Shown piece by piece: positions 1 through 12,506 of a stretch of DNA of 64,000 bases. The stretch comes from Sulfurimonas xiamenensis (GTDB lineage: Bacteria > Campylobacterota > Campylobacteria > Campylobacterales > Sulfurimonadaceae): positions 1,240,001 to 1,304,000 of the forward strand of contig NZ_CP041166.1 in the NCBI RefSeq assembly GCF_009258045.1, written 5' to 3'. The notes under the pieces were generated by a model. That model had not been told where the DNA came from, ran no database searches, and worked only from the letters and a program-made list of their open reading frames with translations. The first letter of the stretch is position 1; each line of letters opens with the position of its first letter. Position numbers and translations under genes: made by a program.

Positions 1-735
1 CAGCTTTGGAGTTGAGAGTTTGCCATCTTTTGAGACAAACACATCACCGCTAAGAAGTACAAACTCCAAAGAGCCACTCTCTTTGCTTAACATCACCCTC
101 TCTCTTAGCCACTCGTTAAAGTAGTAACTCTGATAAACCGAGATCAAAAAACTCTTAAGCTTCGCATCCTCTATGAATAGCTCACCTTTTATCATCTCTC
201 TAGCCTGCTCAATGCTATCTGCATCGCGCCCGAATCTTTGGTATCCGAAGTAGTTTGGAAGTCCGCTTTTAGCTATTTTTCTGGCAACTTTTTCTATCTT
301 GCCCGCATCTATCGCATCAACATCGTAAAGATTTATGCTAAATCTGTTTCCTGCCAAATCTCCCATTCTTATGGAGTGAGAGTGTCTTGTCATGCTTAAT
401 ATCTTAATCTGCTTGTGCTGAAATTTTTTAAGCGCATACTCATGTTTTGTCTCTAGCGATATATACTGCGTAGTCGTTGCATGCTTGTCTTTAAGTCCTG
501 CGTAACCTATCTTTTGAGCGGGAATCATAAGATGCTCTGCGAAGATGGCAATCATATCCCAAGTGGTGAGTTCAACTTTTTGCACCTTTAGTATGAGGTA
601 ATTTCCTCTGCCTAAAAACTCTTCCATAGGAATCTCATCAACTACGAAATCCTTCTCATTTTGGTAAAATTTTAAATCGATATCCTGTATGCTGTGTAGA
701 TACTCTCTATCTAACTCTTTTATAATTGTAGAAAT
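1..735 (-). CDS. truD: tRNA pseudouridine synthase TruD (3' end outside window)
   Basis: TruD makes pseudouridine-13 in tRNA. The 245 visible residues hold the family motif GYAGLKDKHATTTQ, whose Asp is the catalytic nucleophile in E. coli TruD, then NYFGYQRFG and the hydrophobic SVYQSYYFNEWL stretch, all in family order. The gene lies downstream of ribF and overlaps its 3' end. There is no in-frame ATG, GTG or TTG before the conserved part. An ATT codon at 735-733 sits five bases after a perfect AAGGAG ribosome binding site and starts a protein whose length before EKDFVVDEIP suits the family, so I take ATT as the start. The C-terminal part is cut by the window edge. Identity is secure; the start is inferred. 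Confidence 0.93.
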   Translation of the reverse strand, partial: MSTIIKELDREYLHSIQDIDLKFYQNEKDFVVDEIPMEEFLGRGNYLILKVQKVELTTWDMIAIFAEHLMIPAQKIGYAGLKDKHATTTQYISLETKHEYALKKFQHKQIKILSMTRHSHSIRMGDLAGNRFSINLYDVDAIDAGKIEKVARKIAKSGLPNYFGYQRFGRDADSIEQAREMIKGELFIEDAKLKSFLISVYQSYYFNEWLRERVMLSKESGSLEFVLLSGDVFVSKDGKLSTPKL

Positions 736-1586
736 TTTAGCTCCTTTGAAGCGGTTGCTATATCTTTTTTTATAGCTTTTCTTAACTCGTCTAACGAGTC
801 AAATTTTTTGTTCTCTCTGATAAAGTTAATAAAACTGATACTTGCGCGCTCTTTACATAACACTTCGCTATCAAGTATGTGGCTCTCTAACGCGAAACTT
901 CCATCCGTTGTTACTCTATGCCCGACAAACGAGACCGATGGATGAAAATGTTCCTCGTCATCAATGCGTGTAAGTGTTGCATAAACACCCTCTTTTGGCA
1001 TTAAAAACTCTTTCGCTTCTACATTTATAGTAGCGACTAGCTCTTTTTTGCCTATGCCCTGACCTGCTACCACTTTGCCTTTGATGGTGTAATTATGCCC
1101 TAAAAAAGCGTTGGCTCCCTCAATATCTCCGATTTGAAGCTTTGCTCTTATCTTGTGAGAGTGAACCGAATCGCCGTGCAGAGTCACCTCTTCAATCACA
1201 TCTACCTCTCCATCAAATAGAGTTTTGAGGTCATTAAAAGAGTATTTTCTATTTTTTCCAAAGTGAAAATCATACCCGACTACTATCTTTTGGAGTTTTG
1301 GAAACTTCTCTTTTAAAAAAGCTATAAACTCCTCTCCGCTGAAGTGGCGGATATCCTCTAGTTCAAGATAAAGAAAAGGAAAGTGCGAAAAGTGCTCACG
1401 CTCTTTTTTTGGAGTAAGGTTTGCATAACCCGTCTCGATAACAACTATAGTACTCTTCTCATCAAGTGCCGAAAAAAGCTGTTGATGTCCGATATGCATC
1501 CCGTCAAAGCCGCCTATAGCTATGGATGTGCTGTTTTTCAAATCTTTTTCCTCTCTAGCAAAATAGCTTCTCTCTTTTTTATGCAA
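720..1586 (-). CDS. ribF: Bifunctional riboflavin kinase / FAD synthetase RibF
   Basis: RibF phosphorylates riboflavin to FMN and adenylates FMN to FAD. The N-terminal nucleotidyltransferase half shows IGGFDGMHIGHQ, with the HxGH-type nucleotide-binding motif. The C-terminal flavokinase half begins near IKGKVVAGQGIGKKEL, and the usual PTAN motif reads VATIN; I recall similar divergence in Campylobacterota RibF proteins. Length is 288 residues, slightly below the usual 300-310. No ATG lies near the N-terminus. The options are TTG at 1586, which has no clear ribosome binding site, and TTG at 1541, preceded by GAGAGG. The truD start lies inside its 3' end, so the two are co-transcribed. Confidence 0.93.
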   Translation of the reverse strand: MHKKERSYFAREEKDLKNSTSIAIGGFDGMHIGHQQLFSALDEKSTIVVIETGYANLTPKKEREHFSHFPFLYLELEDIRHFSGEEFIAFLKEKFPKLQKIVVGYDFHFGKNRKYSFNDLKTLFDGEVDVIEEVTLHGDSVHSHKIRAKLQIGDIEGANAFLGHNYTIKGKVVAGQGIGKKELVATINVEAKEFLMPKEGVYATLTRIDDEEHFHPSVSFVGHRVTTDGSFALESHILDSEVLCKERASISFINFIRENKKFDSLDELRKAIKKDIATASKELKFLQL

Positions 1587-1603
1587 AATTTTATCAAAAA
1601 GGT

Positions 1604-1876
1604 CTATATTTTATCATTAAAAGCATTTTGCTTTTTGTTTTTATACCACTTATAAAGCCCATACACGCTTATCAATATCCAAAAAAATTCTATGATAAAA
1701 GAGGCGAAATTCCAGTTATACAAGAGTGAATAGACAATAAGAAGTGCACCTAAAAAGTTAAAAAACGAGTAGAAAAAGCCTTTGGCATCTATTTTTTCAC
1801 TCTGCAACAAAAAATATGTTGCCAAAACCATTGCTACACCTACAATACCAACAACATCTACTGCAAAACTACTCAT
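1604..1876 (-). CDS. Small membrane protein, CBU_0592-like
   Basis: A 90-residue, very hydrophobic protein with about three membrane segments (roughly residues 7-24, 34-52 and 57-76) and a basic C-terminal tail, KWYKNKKQ. The pattern, including LQSEKIDAKGFFYSFFNF between the first two segments, resembles the short CBU_0592-like inner-membrane family of unknown function. It ends 17 bases before ribF on the same strand and could be co-transcribed with it. It begins the stretch that separates ribF from tlyA, so it may belong to the inserted material. No function can be assigned. Confidence 0.72.
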   Translation of the reverse strand: MSSFAVDVVGIVGVAMVLATYFLLQSEKIDAKGFFYSFFNFLGALLIVYSLLYNWNFASFIIEFFWILISVYGLYKWYKNKKQNAFNDKI

Positions 1877-2241
1877 TTTATTATCTCCATGGTTTATTTG
1901 TTAAATCTAGTATATTTTAAACCGACTGCTAGATTTAAATTAATTTTTTATCTTTATTCTTTTTATTATGGCATAAAATTTTAATAGTACTAACATTGTC
2001 TGACTGTTTAATATATTGAGTGTCTTATAAATGTAATCATGGTTGGTAAAAGGGAGATAAGTAAGTGACTGCAAAAAAGTTTGAAAAAATCTCAGGTAAA
2101 ATAACAACGACACTCTATGCTTATATAAATAAAGCTGTTATATGAAATATTTTTAATTAGTAAGATTTAATATAAATTAAGAAGCTATTAAATTTATATG
2201 ATTATACTTAGAGTCAATAATAGTGCTAATTGAGGGGTTGT
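1877..2241. other. Divergent intergenic region ahead of the ATP-grasp operon
   Basis: About 365 AT-rich bases between the minus-strand membrane protein and the plus-strand five-gene operon. It must hold the operon promoter. TATACT at 2203-2208 is a plausible -10 element, but I see no good -35. GAGGGG ends four bases before the ATG at 2242 and is the ribosome binding site. A 26-codon GTG-initiated frame (2065-2145) is described separately. No RNA structure or strong repeat was seen. Confidence 0.5.
2065..2145 (+). other. Possible 26-residue small ORF upstream of the ATP-grasp operon
   Basis: GTG at 2065 lies eight bases after AGGGAG and opens a 26-codon frame that encodes a lysine- and threonine-rich peptide (begins VTAKKFEKISGK, ends INKAVI). 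It could be a leader peptide, the remnant of a longer gene or chance. No homology is recognised, and the codon count is too small for coding statistics. Confidence 0.15.
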
Positions 2242-3240
2242 ATGTCTAAAAAAAACATCTTATTTATTAACGGTATACCGGATGACAGAAAAATGCTTAT
2301 TCAAAAAATAAACAAAAATGGTCTAATTAAATGGCGGGGAAAGGGTGGTGCAAATCTAAGTTATTTTCTTAAAAATGATCTATTTGATCAATACGATATA
2401 GTCTTTGATCTAAAAGGTACACAGGAACTTCCTCGACAAATGATTCATGCGGTCTTTAATCAAATATCAGATGCAGATACGCATAAAAATGTACTTAAGA
2501 AAGCAGATAGTTTTTATAAAACTGTCTCAAAGCATGTCCCTTTTTTCAATCCTCCTGCAAATGTTATGAATACTACTCGTGATAATATTTATCGCTTACT
2601 GCAAGGAGTTGATAAACTGCATATTCCAAAAACAGTAAAAATCCAACCTAAATCACCATCTGATATTTATGATACGATTGAAAAAGAACATTTTGAGTTT
2701 CCGGTTATTTTTAGACAAGCAGGAGATCACGGTGGTATAAGTACAGTAAAAATTGATGATAAAACAGAACAATTTTATGCATTTCCTCTAGATGGAAGAG
2801 ATTATTATTTGACACAATTTGTTGATTATGCAGATACTATGGGGATTTATACTAAATATCGTCTTGTTGTAGTTGATGGTGAAGTGTATATACGACATGT
2901 GATTTTTAGCGATAGCTGGGTTATTCATAGCAAAAGCAGAGAGTATATGGAAAAAAACAAAAAGTATCAGAGTCAAGAAGCAAAGATTTTAAAATCTTTT
3001 GATATTGAAATAAAACCAAAAATAAAAGATGTGATTAATCAAATCTATCAAAAATTAAAGCTCGATTATTTTGGTATTGACTGCTATATTGATAAAGACA
3101 TGAACATACTGGTCTTTGAAATAAATGCCAATATGAATGTTCTTATTAATAATGCAAAAGACAAAATTAACATATGGACTAAACAGATCGATATAATTAA
3201 AAATGCAGTTATCGTAATGATAGAAAAAGTTAAAACATGA
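2242..3240 (+). CDS. ATP-grasp ligase A (RimK/glutathione synthetase-like)
   Basis: A 332-residue ATP-grasp enzyme. Such enzymes activate a carboxylate as an acyl phosphate and join it to an amine or another nucleophile. Residues 1-100 form a pre-ATP-grasp domain. NPPANVMNTTRDN (about 103-115) is the usual entry to the fold. FPVIFRQAGDHGG (about 153-165) fits the nucleotide-binding strand and flexible loop, KYRLVVVDGEVYIRHV (about 205-220) the central strand, and FGIDC plus VFEINANMN (about 277-299) the Mg-ATP acidic residues. The reading frame continues 12 bases upstream to a TTG, but ATG 2242 with GAGGGG is the better start. The stop overlaps the next gene by four bases. Its 5' two thirds match ligase B and its 3' two thirds match ligase C almost base for base. 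The substrate is unknown. Confidence 0.85.
   Translation: MSKKNILFINGIPDDRKMLIQKINKNGLIKWRGKGGANLSYFLKNDLFDQYDIVFDLKGTQELPRQMIHAVFNQISDADTHKNVLKKADSFYKTVSKHVPFFNPPANVMNTTRDNIYRLLQGVDKLHIPKTVKIQPKSPSDIYDTIEKEHFEFPVIFRQAGDHGGISTVKIDDKTEQFYAFPLDGRDYYLTQFVDYADTMGIYTKYRLVVVDGEVYIRHVIFSDSWVIHSKSREYMEKNKKYQSQEAKILKSFDIEIKPKIKDVINQIYQKLKLDYFGIDCYIDKDMNILVFEINANMNVLINNAKDKINIWTKQIDIIKNAVIVMIEKVKT
2248..2816 (+). repeat. Near-identical block shared with 4604-5172
   Basis: This 569-bp block encodes the N-terminal domain and part of the ATP-grasp core of ligase A. It recurs in ligase B at 4604-5172 with about three base differences by eye. Similarity falls sharply after the shared GACACA at 2811-2816. 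Near-identity over half a gene beside strong divergence in the rest suggests gene conversion or a very recent partial duplication. Confidence 0.9.
2536..3135 (+). repeat. Near-identical block shared with 6943-7542
   Basis: This 600-bp block encodes ligase A from VPFFNPPANVMN to FEINANM. It recurs in ligase C at 6943-7542 with three base differences by eye. The sequences on either side (the first 98 or so residues and the last 35 or so) are clearly different. The core 2536-2816 is common to all three ligase genes. Confidence 0.9.
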
Positions 3241-4601
3241 ATTTTATTATTGAATCTGCTAAGCAGAGTGAATTTAAAGAAATTATTGCTGTATTAAGAC
3301 CATGGAATATGCACCATATTCCTTCTAGTGAAATGGAAATGATAGATTTTGATACTTTTTTTGTAGCAAAACTTGATGATAAAATTGTAGGTGTATCTGG
3401 ATATAAAATACTCTCTTACGGTATGGGGAAAACAACACTGTTGGCTGTTTACCCTGAATTTCAAGGTTCAGGCATTGGCAAAGCATTGCAAGATAGACGA
3501 CTAAAAGAAATGTATAAAGCTGGAGTCAAAAAAGTAATTACCAATGCTGATCGCTCAGATATTATTTTGTGGTACAAAAAACATTATGGTTACCGTGAAA
3601 TCGGAAAATTGGCAAAACTAATCTCTTTTGGTTTAGATGAAATAAAGTATTGGACAACGCTGGAACTGGATCTTGAGATGCATATGACACAAAAAAAGTT
3701 TAAAGATGCAAAAAAACAACAATATATATATGATAATGATCCTGTTCCACTTTCACCTTATTCTCCATTGATCATTAATGCATGTTTGACTGGAATGATA
3801 CCTACAAAAACAAGTACAAGATATGTGCCTGTCAGTGTGGATGAAATTGTAAAAGACGCTATAGATGTTTATGATGCAGGAGCAAGGATCGTACATTTGC
3901 ATGCCAGAGATGCCGATGGTATTCCAACTCATGAAGCCCGTTATTATGAAGAGATGATTATTGCTATACGCCGTGAAAGACCTGATCTTATTTGTTGTGT
4001 TTCTACTTCAGGAAGGAATGTTAAAGAGATAGAACAACGATCAGAGGTACTGTATCTTACAGGTAAAGCAAAACCTGATATGGCAAGTCTGACACTTGGC
4101 TCTCTTAATTTTGCTACAGGTCCTAGTATGAATTCCCTTGATATGATTCAGCAGTTGGCTATGATCATGAAAGAGAAAGGAATCAAGCCTGAAATGGAAG
4201 TATTTGATTCCGGCATGGTCAATGTAGCCAAATATCTCGAGCGTCATGAAATTGTCAGCGGTAACAAATACTTCAATATTTTATTGGGTAACATTAATAC
4301 AGCTCCCGCAACAATAGGAGATCTAGCGCATCTTTTAAATGCATTGCCTAAAGATTCTATTTGGGCAGCTACTGGTCTTGGTGGATTTCAATTACCTATG
4401 AATACTGCAGCTATTATAGCTGGAGGACATGTGAGAGTAGGATTAGAAGATTCAATTTATTATGACTATAAACAAAATACATTGGCAACAAATACAAATT
4501 TAATCAAGCGCATTGTCCGTATAGCCAATGAATTACAAAGAGAAATTGCGACAGGAAGCGAAGTAAGAAATATATTGGGTTTATCAAAAGAAGTTTTATG
4601 A
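3237..4601 (+). CDS. GNAT acetyltransferase fused to beta-keto acid cleavage enzyme (BKACE/DUF849)
   Basis: A 454-residue two-domain protein. Residues 1-145 are a GNAT domain with the acyl-CoA-binding signature VYPEFQGSGIGKAL (71-84) and NADRSDIILWYKKHYGY near its end. Residues 170-454 are a BKACE (DUF849) TIM barrel. HLHARD (220-225) gives the two metal-binding His, E321 in EMEVFDSG is a candidate third ligand, and GGHVRVGLEDS (396-406) is the family's C-terminal signature. Known BKACEs condense a beta-keto acid with acetyl-CoA to give acetoacetate and a new acyl-CoA. A fused GNAT could pass that acyl group to an amine (inference). The gene overlaps both ligase neighbours by ATGA, so translation is coupled. 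Lysine-fermentation genes that accompany the classical Kce enzyme are absent. Confidence 0.86.
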   Translation: MNFIIESAKQSEFKEIIAVLRPWNMHHIPSSEMEMIDFDTFFVAKLDDKIVGVSGYKILSYGMGKTTLLAVYPEFQGSGIGKALQDRRLKEMYKAGVKKVITNADRSDIILWYKKHYGYREIGKLAKLISFGLDEIKYWTTLELDLEMHMTQKKFKDAKKQQYIYDNDPVPLSPYSPLIINACLTGMIPTKTSTRYVPVSVDEIVKDAIDVYDAGARIVHLHARDADGIPTHEARYYEEMIIAIRRERPDLICCVSTSGRNVKEIEQRSEVLYLTGKAKPDMASLTLGSLNFATGPSMNSLDMIQQLAMIMKEKGIKPEMEVFDSGMVNVAKYLERHEIVSGNKYFNILLGNINTAPATIGDLAHLLNALPKDSIWAATGLGGFQLPMNTAAIIAGGHVRVGLEDSIYYDYKQNTLATNTNLIKRIVRIANELQREIATGSEVRNILGLSKEVL

Positions 4602-5575
4602 TGAAAAAAAACATCTTATTTATCAACGGTATACCGGATGACAGAAAAATGCTTATTCAAAAAATAAACAAAAATGGTCTAATTAAATGGCGGGGAAAGG
4701 GTGGTGCAAATCTAAGTTATTTTCTTAAAAATGATCTATTTGATCAATACGATATAGTCTTTGATCTAAAAGGTACACAGGAACTTCCTCGACAAATGAT
4801 TCATGCGGTCTTTAATCAAATATCAGATGCAGATACGCATAAAAATGTACTTAAGAAAGCAGATAGTTTTTATAAAACTGTCTCAAAGCATGTCCCTTTT
4901 TTCAATCCTCCTGCAAATGTTATGAATACTACTCGTGATAATATTTATCGCTTACTGCAAGGAGTTGATAAACTGCATATTCCAAAAACAGTAAAAATCC
5001 AACCTAAATCACCATCTGATATTTATAATACGGTTGAAAAAGAACATTTTGAGTTTCCGGTTATTTTTAGACAAGCAGGAGATCACGGTGGTATAAGTAC
5101 AGTAAAAATTGATGATAAAACAGAACAATTTTATGCATTTCCTCTAGATGGAAGAGATTATTATTTGACACAGTTCGTAGAAACTGCCAAAAATAAAATA
5201 TATGCTAAATACCGTTTAGTAGTAGTAAATGGTGAAGTATTTATACGACATGTGATTTATGGGCGGGAATGGATGGTACATGCCGGCAGCCAGATCGAGG
5301 AACAAGAAATCAGTAACTATAAAAAATCAGTTTCTAAACATTTTCTTACAGAAATCAAACCTTTAATCCAACCGACTATTGATCAAATATATTACCGTAT
5401 TGGCTTGGATTATTTTGGCATTGATTGCCATATTGATAATAATATGAATTTATTGGTTTTTGAGATCAATGCAAATATGAATGTTTTTACTAAAAGTAAA
5501 AATAGTGTTTTTACAAAACACATTGAAATGGCTAGACAGGCATTAATAAATATGCTCATAAAAGGAAAAAAATAG
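4598..5575 (+). CDS. ATP-grasp ligase B (RimK/glutathione synthetase-like)
   Basis: A 325-residue paralogue of ligase A. The first 190 or so residues are nearly identical (one visible change is DIYNTV for DIYDTI). After YYLTQFV the sequence diverges to ETAKNKIYAKYRLVVVNGEV, a different lid region (YGREWMVHAGSQIEEQE) and the tail NVFTKSKNSVFTKHIEMA. ATP-grasp metal residues are kept in FGIDC and VFEINANMN. The start overlaps the stop of the GNAT-BKACE gene; ATG 4598 and ATG 4601 are both usable. Sharing the N-terminal domain while differing in the C-terminal lid suggests that ligases A and B share one substrate and differ in another, or act in successive steps. This is inference. Confidence 0.85.
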   Translation: MMKKNILFINGIPDDRKMLIQKINKNGLIKWRGKGGANLSYFLKNDLFDQYDIVFDLKGTQELPRQMIHAVFNQISDADTHKNVLKKADSFYKTVSKHVPFFNPPANVMNTTRDNIYRLLQGVDKLHIPKTVKIQPKSPSDIYNTVEKEHFEFPVIFRQAGDHGGISTVKIDDKTEQFYAFPLDGRDYYLTQFVETAKNKIYAKYRLVVVNGEVFIRHVIYGREWMVHAGSQIEEQEISNYKKSVSKHFLTEIKPLIQPTIDQIYYRIGLDYFGIDCHIDNNMNLLVFEINANMNVFTKSKNSVFTKHIEMARQALINMLIKGKK

Positions 5576-5577
5576 TT

Positions 5578-6615
5578 ATGATGAAAATGGGGGTTGAACA
5601 TGAATTTGTATTTAAGGATGATCGCGGGACTTATTTAGATTTTGAAACGGCAGAATATTCTATTTTTCAAAAAATTATAAATGAATTCCCCTATTTTGAA
5701 AATGATGATACATTCTTTGATTGTAAATCATTAGAACAAAAGCCAAAACGATGCTATATAGAGGGCTTTGAGCGATATGATATAAATGGAAAACTTATTG
5801 AAACTGTTCCTAAAGGTCTTGAGATTAGAACTTTACCGCATACCAATATAGATACAGTTATTAAAGATTTTACAAACTCTTATACATGTCTCATGCATAG
5901 TGCAGAAAAATTTGGTTTCTCTCCACTTCTTACAAGTATACATCCTTTTAAAAGTTCTGTTCATTTCAAAAAACCATTAAACAGAGCAGAAATAGCTTTA
6001 CGAACAGATGAAGAACTAACTATAGCAACAGATGCATTGCTTTGGCATGGGATTCATATTAATGTCTCTATAAGTAGTGCATCAAAAGAACAAATGACGG
6101 ATCTTTTGCAAAAAGTTAATTATTATGCTCCTTATATTATTCCTTTTAGCTTTTCATCTCCTTTTCATGATGGAAAAGTATTTGACGGTTTGTCGTATAG
6201 AACATACCGTAAAGCCAAAACAAGAAAAGTGATTCAATTACAAAATAGAAAAGGAGTTTATGTGCTTGAATTTAGAGGATTTGATTCTTGTGGGGATGTA
6301 AAATTACTTAAATCCCTGCTTCTTCTTTATAAAGGGCTTCTACTTGATAAAAGTTTGAAACAAAGAGCTTCATTTCAGAATCCAGAGCTTCTGGAACATT
6401 CTGCTCTTAAAGGGTTTGAAGATGAAACCATAAGAAAAGAAGGCTTAAATGTCTTAAAGGCTGTAAGAGCTGTAATTCAAGATGAGAAAGAAGCATTGCA
6501 AATGTTAGAAAACATGTTATATATAAATGATTCTTATGCATCAAAAATAAAACAAATATATCTCGAAACAGGTGATATTATGAAAAGTATTTCAAATAGA
6601 TATCACTATGATTAA
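5578..6615 (+). CDS. Glutamate-cysteine ligase-like carboxylate-amine ligase
   Basis: A 345-residue protein with the hallmarks of the glutamine synthetase/GCS2 amidoligase fold. It shows an N-terminal acidic strand GVEHEF (5-10), an arginine-bearing strand KGLEIRTLPH (79-88), the His strand HGIHINVS (157-164) and LEFRGFD (230-236). These motifs supply metal and carboxylate ligands in glutamate-cysteine ligases. It probably makes an amide between an amino acid carboxylate and an amine using ATP, perhaps the first bond of the cluster's product. It is shorter and more divergent than canonical GshA, so cysteine need not be the acceptor. It lies two bases after ligase B. The substrate is unknown. 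Confidence 0.72.
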   Translation: MMKMGVEHEFVFKDDRGTYLDFETAEYSIFQKIINEFPYFENDDTFFDCKSLEQKPKRCYIEGFERYDINGKLIETVPKGLEIRTLPHTNIDTVIKDFTNSYTCLMHSAEKFGFSPLLTSIHPFKSSVHFKKPLNRAEIALRTDEELTIATDALLWHGIHINVSISSASKEQMTDLLQKVNYYAPYIIPFSFSSPFHDGKVFDGLSYRTYRKAKTRKVIQLQNRKGVYVLEFRGFDSCGDVKLLKSLLLLYKGLLLDKSLKQRASFQNPELLEHSALKGFEDETIRKEGLNVLKAVRAVIQDEKEALQMLENMLYINDSYASKIKQIYLETGDIMKSISNRYHYD

Positions 6616-6648
6616 TTTAATAGTATTTCATATTCTAAAAGGAGTTTT

Positions 6649-7671
6649 ATGATGAAAAAAAATATTTTATTTATAAATGGTGTTCCAGATGATCAAAGAG
6701 CATTCGTTTATGAGATTGATAAAAATGGTGTTTATAAATGGCAAAGCATTGGTAGTTCGAATGTAAGTAACTTTCTTAAAAATGATCTGTTTAATCGATC
6801 TTCTATCCTTCTTGATACTACAGAAGATCAGGAACTTCCACGAATAGTGGTCTCTGCAATTTTCAATGAAATATCAGATGCAGATACACATAAGATCACA
6901 CTTAAGAAAGCAGATGACTTCTATAAATCAATTTCAGACAAAGTCCCTTTTTTCAATCCTCCTGCAAATGTTATGAATACTACTCGTGATAATATTTATC
7001 GCTTACTGCAAGAAGTTGATAAACTGCATGTTCCAAAAACAGTAAAAATCCAACCTAAATCACCATCTGATATTTATGATACGATTGAAAAAGAACATTT
7101 TGAGTTTCCGGTTATTTTTAGACAAGCAGGAGATCACGGTGGTATAAGTACAGTAAAAATTGATGATAAAACAGAACAATTTTATGCATTTCCTCTAGAT
7201 GGAAGAGATTATTATTTGACACAATTTGTTGATTATGCAGATACTATGGGGATTTATACTAAATATCGTCTTGTTGTAGTTGATGGTGAAGTGTATATAC
7301 GACATGTGATTTTTAGCGATAGCTGGGTTATTCATAGCAAAAGCAGAGAGTATATGGAAAAAAACAAAAAGTATCAGAGTCAAGAAGCAAAGATTTTAAA
7401 ATCTTTTGATATTGAAATAAAACCAAAAATAAAAGATGTGATTAATCAAATCTATCAAAAATTAAAGCTTGATTATTTTGGTATTGACTGCTATATTGAT
7501 AAAGACATGAACATACTGGTCTTTGAAATAAATGCCAATATGGGCATTCTTCTTCAAACCAAAGGTTATATTTTTGAAGATCGTATTGAAACAATTCGAC
7601 AAGCATTGATCAAAATGATATTAGAAAAAAACAGCCCTAAAGATTTCTCGCGCAATAATGTAATAGCTTAA
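6649..7671 (+). CDS. ATP-grasp ligase C (RimK/glutathione synthetase-like)
   Basis: A 340-residue third paralogue, 33 bases after the GCS-like gene, with its own ribosome binding site AAGGAG. The N-terminal domain (about residues 1-98) differs from ligases A and B (DDQRAFVYEIDKNGVYKW), yet keeps KKNILFING and FLKNDLFN. From VPFFNPPANVMN to FEINANM it is almost identical to ligase A. The tail then diverges (GILLQTKGYIFEDRIETIRQ) and carries a short polar extension, NSPKDFSRNN. The ATP-grasp motifs are intact. A different N-terminal domain on the same catalytic core suggests a different acceptor or donor from ligase A. It is the last gene before a hairpin terminator. Confidence 0.85.
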   Translation: MMKKNILFINGVPDDQRAFVYEIDKNGVYKWQSIGSSNVSNFLKNDLFNRSSILLDTTEDQELPRIVVSAIFNEISDADTHKITLKKADDFYKSISDKVPFFNPPANVMNTTRDNIYRLLQEVDKLHVPKTVKIQPKSPSDIYDTIEKEHFEFPVIFRQAGDHGGISTVKIDDKTEQFYAFPLDGRDYYLTQFVDYADTMGIYTKYRLVVVDGEVYIRHVIFSDSWVIHSKSREYMEKNKKYQSQEAKILKSFDIEIKPKIKDVINQIYQKLKLDYFGIDCYIDKDMNILVFEINANMGILLQTKGYIFEDRIETIRQALIKMILEKNSPKDFSRNNVIA

Positions 7672-7698
7672 ATATCGCAAAAAAATATGAAGTTTTCA

Positions 7699-7726
7699 TT
7701 CTATCAAGCCATATGGCTTGATAGAA
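7699..7726. terminator. Perfect inverted repeat between convergent genes
   Basis: The arms CTATCAAGCC and GGCTTGATAG pair across an ATAT centre (7701-7724) and extend by TT/AA. The hairpin lies between the stops of ligase C (plus) and the barrel gene (minus), so it can end both transcripts. The same hairpin recurs at 8653-8676 behind the second barrel gene. No long U-tract follows on the plus strand. Confidence 0.65.
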
Positions 7727-7731
7727 ATGGA

Positions 7732-8397
7732 TTAGAATTTATAGCTTAAACCTATGTTTACTGTATCTATTGTAACATCAAGATCATAGGTATAAATACC
7801 ATCGACATATGTGTCACCTTCATCTTTACATAATCTTACATAATCTATAAAAAACGAAGTGTTTTCTGTAATGCTATAAGATGCACCGATACCCCATTGG
7901 AAAACATTTTCATCTAGAAGACTTTGATCAAACCACCATTCATCATTAACAGAGACATTTCCATAACCCAGTAAAGCATAAACGCTAAAAGTCTCTGTTA
8001 CCGGATACATCGGTTTAACATAGATACCCCATGCACTCCAGTCTCCATCACTATAGTCATTAGAATAGTCCAACTCTCCATTTGTATATCTTGAATAACT
8101 GTACTTTTCTGAATCCATCGCATTCCAATATCTTCCTTCTATCGCAATATATTGGTTGAACTGATAACCAGCTTGAAGCATATAAGCATTAGTGTCAACT
8201 TCATATGAATCATAGTAATCATAATCATTACCCCCTGACTCATAATTTTCATGTATACTCATTTCGCTATTTACAAGACTATATGCACCACCTATGTAAA
8301 AACCGCTCTTTGAACCAACTGCCGGTATATTTTCACTCGCTACTGCAAATGTACTCAAAGCCAAAACTGTTGCTATTGAAAGTGTAAAATTTTTCAT
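7732..8397 (-). CDS. Outer-membrane beta-barrel protein, tandem copy 1
   Basis: A 221-residue protein with a signal peptide (MKNFTLSIATVLALSTFAVA) and a mature chain of alternating hydrophobic strands: GFYIGGAYS, AYMLQAGYQF, YIAIEGRYW, VYALLGYGNV, WGIGASYS and NIGLSYKF. It ends in an aromatic residue, as outer-membrane proteins do. This fits the small eight-stranded OmpA-like/OMP_b-brl porin family. Acidic, tyrosine-rich inserts (NDYDYYDSYE; NDYSDGDW) look like extracellular loops. It is about 85-90 percent identical to the copy at 8684-9361, with the differences concentrated in the loops. The specific role is unknown. Confidence 0.82.
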   Translation of the reverse strand: MKNFTLSIATVLALSTFAVASENIPAVGSKSGFYIGGAYSLVNSEMSIHENYESGGNDYDYYDSYEVDTNAYMLQAGYQFNQYIAIEGRYWNAMDSEKYSYSRYTNGELDYSNDYSDGDWSAWGIYVKPMYPVTETFSVYALLGYGNVSVNDEWWFDQSLLDENVFQWGIGASYSITENTSFFIDYVRLCKDEGDTYVDGIYTYDLDVTIDTVNIGLSYKF

Positions 8398-8683
8398 TAC
8401 TTTTCCTTTTTTTTAATATTTATATTTAACATTTTAAGATTATATGGCTTTATATAATCTTAATATATAATAAAGTTAAAAAATTATAATTTAATTTGAG
8501 GACATTGTAAATGAGTTAAATAAAAGAACTCCAGTATACATTTCTCATCGTCTACGATTGGAATGAAGAAGAAGAATAGCACTATTTCTTAGAGTGATTT
8601 GGTTTAGGAGAAAGTGTTCTAAATCAAAAATGTCAATTATAAAGTTTTCATTCTATCAAGCCATATGGCTTGATAGGAAGGGA
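8398..8683. other. Upstream region of barrel copy 1, part of a tandem repeat unit
   Basis: This 286-bp spacer carries the barrel gene's ribosome binding site (AAGGAAAAG on the minus strand), a palindrome at 8436-8461 (arms AAGATTATAT/ATATAATCTT, centre GGCTTT), and the duplicated terminator hairpin at 8653-8676 that follows barrel copy 2. The first 100 or so bases closely match those upstream of copy 2 (9362-9490), so the duplication included the promoter region. The middle (about 8530-8640) has no recognisable content. Confidence 0.6.
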
Positions 8684-9361
8684 TTAGAATTTATAGCTTA
8701 AACCTATGTTTACTGTATCAATAGTGATGTCAAGATCATATGTATTGTAGTCATAACCACCATCAACATATGTGTCACCTTCATCTTTACATAATCTTAC
8801 ATAATCTATAAAAAACGAAGTGTTTTCTGTAATGCTATAAGATGCACCGATACCCCATTGGAAAACATTTTCATCTAGAAGACTTTTATCATCAGACCAT
8901 TCGTCTTTTATAGAAACATTTCCATAACCCAGTAAAGCATAAACGCTAAAAGTCTCTGTTACCGGATACATCGGTTTGACATAGATACCCCATGCACTCC
9001 AGTCTCCATCACTATAGTCATTAGAATAGTCCAACTCTCCATTTGTATATCTTGAATAACTATTCTTTTCTGAATCCATCGCATTCCAATATCTTCCTTC
9101 TATCGCAATATATTGGTTGAACTGATAACCAGCTTGAAGCATATAAGCATTAGTGTCAACTTCATATGAATCATAGCGATCATAATCATTACCTTCTATA
9201 TATCCATAATCACGATGTACACTCATTTCACTATTTACAAGACTATATGCACCACCTATGTAAAAACCGCTCTTTGAACCAACTGCCGGTATATCTTCAC
9301 TCGCTACTGCAAATGTACTCAAAGCCAAAACTGTTGCTATTGAAAGTGTAAAATTTTTCAT
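8684..9361 (-). CDS. Outer-membrane beta-barrel protein, tandem copy 2
   Basis: A 225-residue paralogue of the protein at 7732-8397, with an identical signal peptide and the same strand pattern ending in LSYKF. Differences cluster in three loops: after EMSVHRDYGYIEGNDYD, at KDEWSDDKSLLDE, and a longer GGYDYNTYDLD insert near the C-terminus. Loop-limited divergence is typical of surface-exposed proteins under phage or immune-like selection, although this cause is inferred. The gene has its own upstream palindrome and downstream hairpin, so both copies look like complete transcription units. Confidence 0.82.
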   Translation of the reverse strand: MKNFTLSIATVLALSTFAVASEDIPAVGSKSGFYIGGAYSLVNSEMSVHRDYGYIEGNDYDRYDSYEVDTNAYMLQAGYQFNQYIAIEGRYWNAMDSEKNSYSRYTNGELDYSNDYSDGDWSAWGIYVKPMYPVTETFSVYALLGYGNVSIKDEWSDDKSLLDENVFQWGIGASYSITENTSFFIDYVRLCKDEGDTYVDGGYDYNTYDLDITIDTVNIGLSYKF

Positions 9362-9400
9362 TACTTTTCCTTTTTTTTAATATTTAACATTTTAAATTTT

Positions 9401-9426
9401 AAGATTATATGGCTTTATATAATCTT
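9401..9426. promoter_or_regulatory. Palindrome over the barrel-gene promoter region (copy 2)
   Basis: The arms AAGATTATAT and ATATAATCTT flank GGCTTT, 40 bases upstream of the ATG. On the minus strand one arm contains TATAAT, a perfect -10 hexamer, so this may be an operator overlapping the promoter or, if transcribed, a 5' UTR hairpin. It is conserved in the other copy at 8436-8461. Confidence 0.45.
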
Positions 9427-9484
9427 AATATAGAATAAAGTTAAAAAATTATAATTTAATTTGAGGACATTGTAAAGGAGTTAA

Positions 9485-9607
9485 ATAAAAGAACTTCCTA
9501 TAAAATATTGGCTCGACTTAGAACTTGAAATATTTAAAATTTCACCTAATGAATTTTATGTTGCTCTTTTAAAAGAAGAGATATATTGTATTAGCTATAT
9601 ACTATGA
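9485..9607 (+). pseudogene. Possible decayed coding fragment
   Basis: An open frame of about 40 codons reads IKELPIKYWLDLELEIF and then KISPNEFYVALLKEEIYC before a TGA. It has coding-like amino acid use but no start codon, and a stop immediately upstream. The matching site upstream of barrel copy 1 shares only the first few codons. It may be the tail of a gene disrupted by the barrel duplication. No homologue is recognised. Confidence 0.2.
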
Positions 9608-9645
9608 CAAATACTCTTTTGCTCTTCCCTCTGAGAAGTGTTGAA

Positions 9646-9741
9646 GGTATATCGTCATATATGTTTATTGATTTTAGATATGCGAAAGGCAGGTCTTAAT
9701 CCAATTCTCGCGGTATATCGTCATATATGTTTATTGATTTT
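9646..9741. repeat. Two-copy 30-bp direct repeat with 36-bp spacer
   Basis: Identical 30-bp copies lie at 9646-9675 and 9712-9741. Each begins GGTATATCGTC and ends TTATTGATTTT. The 36 bases between them are unrelated. The rest of 9608-9802 contains no gene and nothing else that I recognise. The geometry resembles a two-repeat CRISPR unit, but no cas gene or third repeat is present, so it is called only a direct repeat. Confidence 0.8.
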
Positions 9742-9802
9742 CACTGTAAACAGTAATCTTCTAGTATCTCTTTTAAGACAAATACTAAATTGTTAAAATG
9801 CA

Positions 9803-12506
<2,704 letters not shown>

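Follow-up and report, generated by a model that had tools for sequence, protein, structure and literature searches.

The stretch analysed here comprises 64,000 nucleotides of the Sulfurimonas xiamenensis genome (contig NZ_CP041166.1, positions 1,240,001 to 1,304,000; hereafter the window, numbered from its first base). At 2242-7671 it carries a plus-strand operon that encodes three RimK-like ATP-grasp ligases, a GNAT-BKACE fusion and a GCS-like carboxylate-amine ligase. We interpret the cluster as an accessory, probably imported, modular pathway to a small acylated peptide-like metabolite that would be made without the ribosome or a non-ribosomal peptide synthetase (NRPS); the probability of this reading is put at about 0.5. 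The original prediction, made from the letters alone, had read the genes as a biosynthetic operon of amide ligases plus an acyl-CoA enzyme; this fitted the comparative evidence but left out the outer-membrane barrel genes beside it. It had also named no characterised pathway with this content; in line with this, no description of the cluster was found in the open-licence literature, a scope outside which most subscription papers lie. Amidoligase neighbourhoods in which ATP-grasp, GCS-like and acetyltransferase genes co-occur were reportedly outlined by Iyer and colleagues in 2009.

Gene content of the operon

Five plus-strand open reading frames (ORFs) were found at exactly the coordinates first given, with overlaps of 4 and 4 bases and gaps of 2 and 33 bases. 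Their assignments rest on Pfam matches:

2242..3240, plus strand: A1, RimK-like ATP-grasp ligase, type 1
3237..4601, plus strand: GNAT-BKACE fusion (GNAT at residues ~1-125, BKACE at 177-449)
4598..5575, plus strand: A2, RimK-like ATP-grasp ligase, type 2
5578..6615, plus strand: GCS2/YbdK-like carboxylate-amine ligase
6649..7671, plus strand: A3, RimK-like ATP-grasp ligase with a type-3 tail

The ORF caller extended the first gene upstream to a TTG at 2230. ORFs 1, 3 and 5 matched the Pfam RimK-like ATP-grasp family over its gathering score (E 1e-8 to 3e-7; 30.7-35.3 bits, gathering score 21), and 13 of the 22 members of the RimK-like family matched it at E 0.01. A1, A2 and A3 missed the cutoff of the narrower RimK model TIGR00768 (25-32 vs 143.4 bits). 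The E-x-N and Asp residues of ATP-grasp enzymes were present in A1. ORF 2 matched GNAT and BKACE (BKACE E 5e-83). The GCS2 match of ORF 4 (E 2e-9) scored 37.7 bits against a cutoff of 21, and its N-terminus bears a GVEHEF motif, which we take to be the family mark of GCS-like ligases. ORF 4 fell below the cutoff of the NCBIfam YbdK subfamily (TIGR02050; 39.6 vs 176.4 bits), a model that an ordinary YbdK protein from the phylum (L003) matched at 271.8 bits. An anti-phage defence role was considered and rejected, with no PADLOC match among seven proteins.

Conserved modules and the partners of GNAT-BKACE

Of 397 phylum genomes, 13 carried GNAT-BKACE at E 1e-60; they hold 14 loci, 13 of which have an ATP-grasp gene adjacent to the fusion. 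The partner belonged to the RimK-like family at nine loci (same strand at six; convergent at three, all in one genus), was a cyanophycin-synthetase-like ligase at three (G331, with two copies, G318 and G332) and an AMP-ligase/ATP-grasp fusion at one (G309). The cyanophycin-like partners scored far under the cyanophycin synthetase cutoffs, and an ornithine-cyclodeaminase-family gene was also present at the loci of G331 and G332. At the remaining locus (G251) an ATP-grasp gene was on the opposite strand at a distance of 2.2 kb, next to an asparagine-synthase-like gene. Since the fusion adjoins ATP-grasp ligases of three different groups, this distribution argues that GNAT-BKACE would make a building block for amide ligases. 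The RimK-like family occurred in 15 of the 397 genomes (E 0.001), eight of which carry both it and GNAT-BKACE.

Five loci were close to the window operon: the window itself, a second locus in the same genome, and those of genomes G396, G364 and G371. Locus gene lists were made with a simple longest-ORF script, in which starts may err and small genes may be missed. A type-1 ligase lay directly upstream of GNAT-BKACE at all four complete close loci. At the fifth (G371) the upstream ligase is cut by the contig end; its variable segment was type-1-like (62-66% to type 1, 42-48% to types 2 and 3, leaving out A3, which bears a type-1 segment) and its tail undecided. A type-2 ligase stood directly upstream of the GCS-like gene in three of three cases (window, G396 and metagenome contig L008), and a type-3 ligase adjoined a P450 gene, a TauD-like oxygenase gene and a gene for a 154- or 155-residue protein at both loci having these (G396 and G371).

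Relatives of the GCS-like gene were rare. Close relatives were found in two other genomes, G396 and that of L008, which was the sole locus of the genome-contig scan with a GCS-like protein; matches at E 0.001 came from 3 of the 397 phylum genomes, namely the own genome, G396 and a weak match to an ordinary YbdK protein. The exact five-gene order was present in the window only, among the genomes searched. The idea of a conserved five-gene neighbourhood was thus not borne out, whereas the unit of GNAT-BKACE with an ATP-grasp gene recurred. The conserved units are modules of two or a few genes rather than the five-gene set.

The synthesis of the compatible solute N-acetylglutaminylglutamine amide (NAGGN) likewise couples GNAT acylation to ATP-grasp amide ligation, and the cluster might make such a neutral dipeptide osmolyte by GNAT N-acylation and ATP-grasp ligation. 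In the NAGGN system GNAT is fused to ATP-grasp. In the window, by contrast, GNAT is fused to BKACE and stands beside three separate RimK-like ligases and a GCS-like ligase; GNAT and ATP-grasp are in separate chains, and the window proteins gave no listed match to the NAGGN synthetase model (TIGR03103) at E 1. Partner ligases in three genomes did match N-acetylglutaminylglutamine synthetase at 83-119 bits (the cutoff, 569, is far higher), but the same ligases scored higher with cyanophycin synthetase (221-250 bits, also under the cutoffs). Locus L053 would suit an osmolyte: within ~2.2 kb of GNAT-BKACE it has an asparagine-synthase gene and, on the opposite strand, an ATP-grasp gene. The rarity of the fusion, the P450/TauD genes in two clusters, the three ligases and the surface genes would be unusual for one, and we regard this explanation as improbable.

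Active-site residues of the BKACE domain

The BKACE domain matched PF05853 (DUF849) at 278.9 bits (cutoff 24.8); it also matched four NCBIfam BKACE models, in each case under the cutoff. Residues are given in Kce numbering, obtained by applying an inferred offset of 6 from the aligned structure chain. His46, His48, Glu230, Arg226 and Asp231 were kept in all 14 GNAT-BKACE sequences; the first three are presumably the metal ligands of Kce and the last two are taken to be important. The window protein thus shares with Kce the BKACE domain, the metal ligands, Arg226 and Asp231, and differs by its N-terminal GNAT and at two positions: that of Glu14 is Ile or Val in 14 of 14 sequences (Ile in the window protein), and the catalytic Tyr145 is replaced by Phe in 14 of 14. 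Glu14 of Kce binds the substrate amine, according to an excerpt of PMC10470551. Its replacement makes an amino keto acid an improbable substrate for BKACE, and because of the Tyr145 to Phe change the chemistry may be shifted. In the text available of PMC12871164, Tyr is said to occupy this position in all BKACE sequences, with Phe in the diverged BsfD. The argument from Phe is weakened by 3no5, a BKACE-like structure deposited as uncharacterised, which also aligns with Phe there.

BsfD, of the flavophos cluster, is likewise a DUF849 protein whose Tyr position is taken by Phe, and it too belongs to a biosynthetic cluster; it carries a loop insertion of roughly 20 residues (PMC12871164, in part). 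Flavophos differs from the window operon in its phosphonate product, and the words ATP-grasp, ligase and GNAT are absent from the available portion of that paper. A C-C bond-forming route can be drawn from this likeness, with BKACE as an acyl-transferring Claisen enzyme and the ATP-grasps building a ketomemicin-like pseudopeptide. The invariant Phe would agree with it, as would the ketomemicin cluster itself, which combines an ATP-grasp ligase, an aldolase and a C-acyltransferase (PMC11943689, partial text). However, Phe alone is a weak argument given 3no5, and we hold the route to be doubtful at best. More generally, ketomemicin and fungal E-64 (PMC12568646, abstract) are small amide products made by ATP-grasp enzymes without an NRPS; their clusters have other partner enzymes, and the sections available of the two papers contain no BKACE or GCS-like ligase.

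A second locus and mosaic ligases

The paralogous locus lies at 1633153-1637281 of the same 1.92-Mb genome (in L031). It runs from a type-1 ligase (B1) through a GNAT-BKACE gene (96%) to a type-3 ligase (B3), followed by a barrel gene in convergent orientation (84%); neither a type-2 ligase nor a GCS-like gene is present. Between the two loci, dN/dS was 0.10 for A1/B1, 0.06 for GNAT-BKACE, 0.13 for A3/B3 and 0.22 for the barrel gene, values that show purifying selection on both. Upstream of the second locus (L031:11378-11676) lie fragments that resemble, by eye, the C-terminus of 2-hydroxyglutaryl-CoA dehydratase and an IS3-type transposase; they hint at the route by which the second copy arrived.

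The ligases were more alike within a locus than between loci. The longest identical runs were 402 bases for A1/A2, 439 for A1/A3 and 535 for B1/B3, against at most 52 (A1/B1) and 75 (A3/B3) between ligases of the same type in different loci. Synonymous divergence within loci was 0.00 for A1/A2 (codons 10-175), 0.01 for A1/A3 (128-295) and 0.00 for B1/B3 (119-295). Between loci it reached 0.39 for A1/B1 codons 128-295 and ranged over 0.25-0.39 for whole ligase and GNAT-BKACE pairs. Because divergence within loci was near zero against 0.25-0.39 between them, we ascribe the mosaics to gene conversion within each locus, later than the separation of the two loci. A3 codons 128-295 were probably overwritten by A1, the presumed donor.

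Segment trees agreed with this pattern, several of their support values being modest (down to 0.03-0.6). The core (126-222) placed A1/A2/A3 in one cluster and B1/B3 in another, and the tail (298 to the end) grouped by type across genera: A1/B1/C1/D1, A2/C2/C2b/F2 (C2b being the second type-2 ligase of G396) and A3/B3/C3/E3. Segment 223-262 was type-specific, except in A3 and B3, which have the type-1 form. Our best guess is that the end segments hold ligase specificity. The three ATP-grasp ligases of the original prediction are not independent: they are gene-converted paralogues of three conserved types.

In the ligase pairs of genomes G359, G191 and G219, one partner had an altered E-x-N metal motif, with FGVNC, FGLDC or LEVSS in place of FExN (L035:7865-8875, L038:8994-10004 and L040:8801-9796). 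Such a partner may perhaps be a non-catalytic subunit.

Paralogous RimK-like ATP-grasps side by side recall the graspetides, a type of ribosomally synthesised and post-translationally modified peptide (RiPP) in which ATP-grasp ligases macrocyclise a small precursor peptide (ATP-grasp pairs as described in the text available of PMC8939145). Subtilases near some relatives would fit a graspetide too. However, no precursor peptide gene was found: the intergenic stretches examined around both loci of this genome held 18 small ORFs, none of which had a conserved counterpart at the matching place in other loci, and the weak matches lie elsewhere, except for an alanine-racemase-like (alr-like) one. 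Neither GNAT-BKACE nor a GCS-like ligase belongs, to our knowledge, to the genes of graspetides. We consider this product class very unlikely.

Accessory distribution and probable import

Sixty genomes of the genus were sampled; completeness was 90% or more and contamination 5% or less in 38. At E 1e-10 the ATP-grasp family was present in the own genome only. Among 26 genomes drawn, G286 had the tlyA most like that of the window (88%); there the distance from tlyA to a 90-residue gene is 1.2 kb and includes a methyltransferase gene, compared with 7.9 kb in the window. By this comparison, G286 holds the empty site for the cluster. The tlyA of G340 was 86% like that of the window, and its fetched flank was without the 90-residue gene. 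The nearest cluster relatives found belong to another genus of the order, g50 (G396, G364 and G371). On this distribution the cluster is accessory and was probably acquired horizontally.

Mobile elements were also searched. No GNAT-BKACE relative was found in viral contigs with a single-protein query, which reaches close relatives only. BKACE was matched in 609 plasmid records, two of them covering at least 80% of the query; no GNAT-BKACE fusion was seen among the 30 of 609 listed, and the match with at least 80% cover among them (H34) was at 24% and ran into a regulator gene. The GNAT part alone matched four records, in each case a short GNAT stretch from E. coli. A3 gave seven, none covering 80% of the query, and no BKACE was seen among the annotated genes in three of the seven A3-matching neighbourhoods. 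The GCS-like protein had one distant plasmid match, a GCS-like protein with 30% identity over 62% of ORF 4 that is encoded in a pilus cluster of a conjugative Serratia symbiotica plasmid (L071:8983-10080).

Flanking barrel genes, palindrome and upstream remnant

The operon is flanked by the following features:

7732..8397, minus strand: OMP1, OmpA-like outer membrane beta-barrel protein, convergent to the operon
8684..9361, minus strand: OMP2, tandem near-copy of OMP1 (93% at the protein level)
7701-7726, same sequence at 8651-8676: perfect 26-nt palindrome, between the operon and OMP1
2065..2145, plus strand: possible 3'-end remnant of an alanine racemase gene (weak similarity)

The operon had been taken to look complete, a view that must be amended: two outer-membrane barrel genes converge on its 3' end. 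The barrel family was found at E 1e-20 in one other of the 60 genus genomes (46% identity), so that two of 60 carry it including the own, and this rarity suggests that the barrel genes are part of the same accessory cargo as the operon. Three of the four family members in the own genome sit at the two ligase loci, and a barrel gene adjoins the cluster at five of five close loci. In G396, three more tandem barrel genes lie just downstream of the GNAT-BKACE gene (L058:7691-10062).

A terminator had been proposed after the operon. A perfect palindrome does stand there (7701-7726), but no T-run follows it on the plus strand and the terminator scan listed no site at it; over window positions 1-12000 the scan gave four sites against 5.4 expected by chance. 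One copy of the palindrome sits downstream of each tandem barrel gene.

The alanine-racemase-like remnant upstream of A1 spans 24 residues and was reached by 1 and 2 of 2000 shuffles, having been chosen among 18 small ORFs. Since alr directly precedes the ligase in G364, the remnant would fit a g50-type donor, as a hint only.

Proposed pathway and a possible surface role

In the pathway that we infer, BKACE would convert a beta-keto acid and acetyl-CoA to a short, probably neutral acyl-CoA, although the Tyr145 to Phe change may alter this chemistry. The fused GNAT would transfer an acyl group onto an amine, with an N-acyl amino acid or a similar compound as the result; this step is suggested by the fusion and by the GNAT plus ATP-grasp logic of N-acetylglutaminylglutamine synthetase. 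A1, following its family chemistry, would activate the carboxylate of that compound to an acyl phosphate and join it to an amine. A2 and the GCS-like ligase might add the next building block, and A3 another. From the linkage, the product may be exported or act at the surface, aided by the OmpA-like barrel proteins.

Several points weigh against this pathway. The operon has no transporter or regulator gene. Structure models of the ligases were of low quality (pLDDT 41 for the RimK family, 37 for the GCS2 family), and profiles searched against solved structures gave at best a designed helical bundle for ATP-grasp (E 0.009) and YbdK (1r8g) for GCS (E 0.35). The eight genomes shared by the RimK-like family and GNAT-BKACE represent four genera only, so locus counts are not independent. 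Six RimK-like carriers without an adjacent fusion had no GNAT-BKACE at E 1e-20 (0/6; a seventh, the weak match G210, was outside that test), nor did the genome of L008. Other neighbours of the RimK-like family are surface proteins (autotransporters, lipoproteins and subtilases), which fit protein modification as well as a free metabolite.

Around these relatives, L034:1570-10083 and L042:6860-14158 hold ATP-grasp genes on the same strand as genes for an autotransporter and a DUF4915-TPR protein (TIGR03032 in L042). In L034, that strand continues with a gene that has adenylylsulfate kinase and PAPS-reductase domains. At two distant loci, L008:2452-4610 and L035:3433-6371, a subtilase with a P-domain stands beside a small separate protein that looks propeptide-like by eye, near ATP-grasp genes.

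The ligases might attach acyl or amino-acid groups derived from GNAT-BKACE to the linked barrel, autotransporter or lipoprotein before export. The constant barrel neighbour at the close loci and the concentration of this rare family at the two own loci speak for such surface-protein modification, as does an autotransporter gene on the same strand that adjoins ATP-grasp in G330 and is one gene off in G240. However, the linked surface proteins belong to different families, with no common acceptor motif seen by eye. In each of the four g50 genomes searched, the barrel family was matched 6-12 times at E 0.001, which makes adjacency there less telling. No barrel of this family was seen at the GNAT-BKACE and ligase loci L053-L057, and the candidate barrel beside the ATP-grasp gene of G389 matched no Pfam family. 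Surface-protein modification is rather unlikely on balance. The surface association, strong at the close loci, could reflect either export and sensing of a metabolite or modification of a surface protein.

In a more speculative scheme of modular tagging, which we consider unlikely, three ligases of a single lineage would each be tied to a building-block enzyme (GNAT-BKACE, GCS-like ligase or oxygenases). Together they would assemble an acylated chain of amides, either on a barrel protein dedicated to this role or for it, and gene conversion within the operon would swap specificity segments.

Implications

Under the metabolite reading, the operon would offer a compact group of genes that make amides independently of an NRPS, from bacteria for which literature searches gave little on natural products. 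Because the GNAT-BKACE fusion recurs with three different groups of ATP-grasp ligases, its product should be a shared building block. The ligases, with near-identical cores and type-specific ends, point to where specificity may lie and offer a natural domain-swap set. If the scheme of three ligases building a chain for a barrel protein were true, the locus would be a case of natural combinatorial biosynthesis by recombination.

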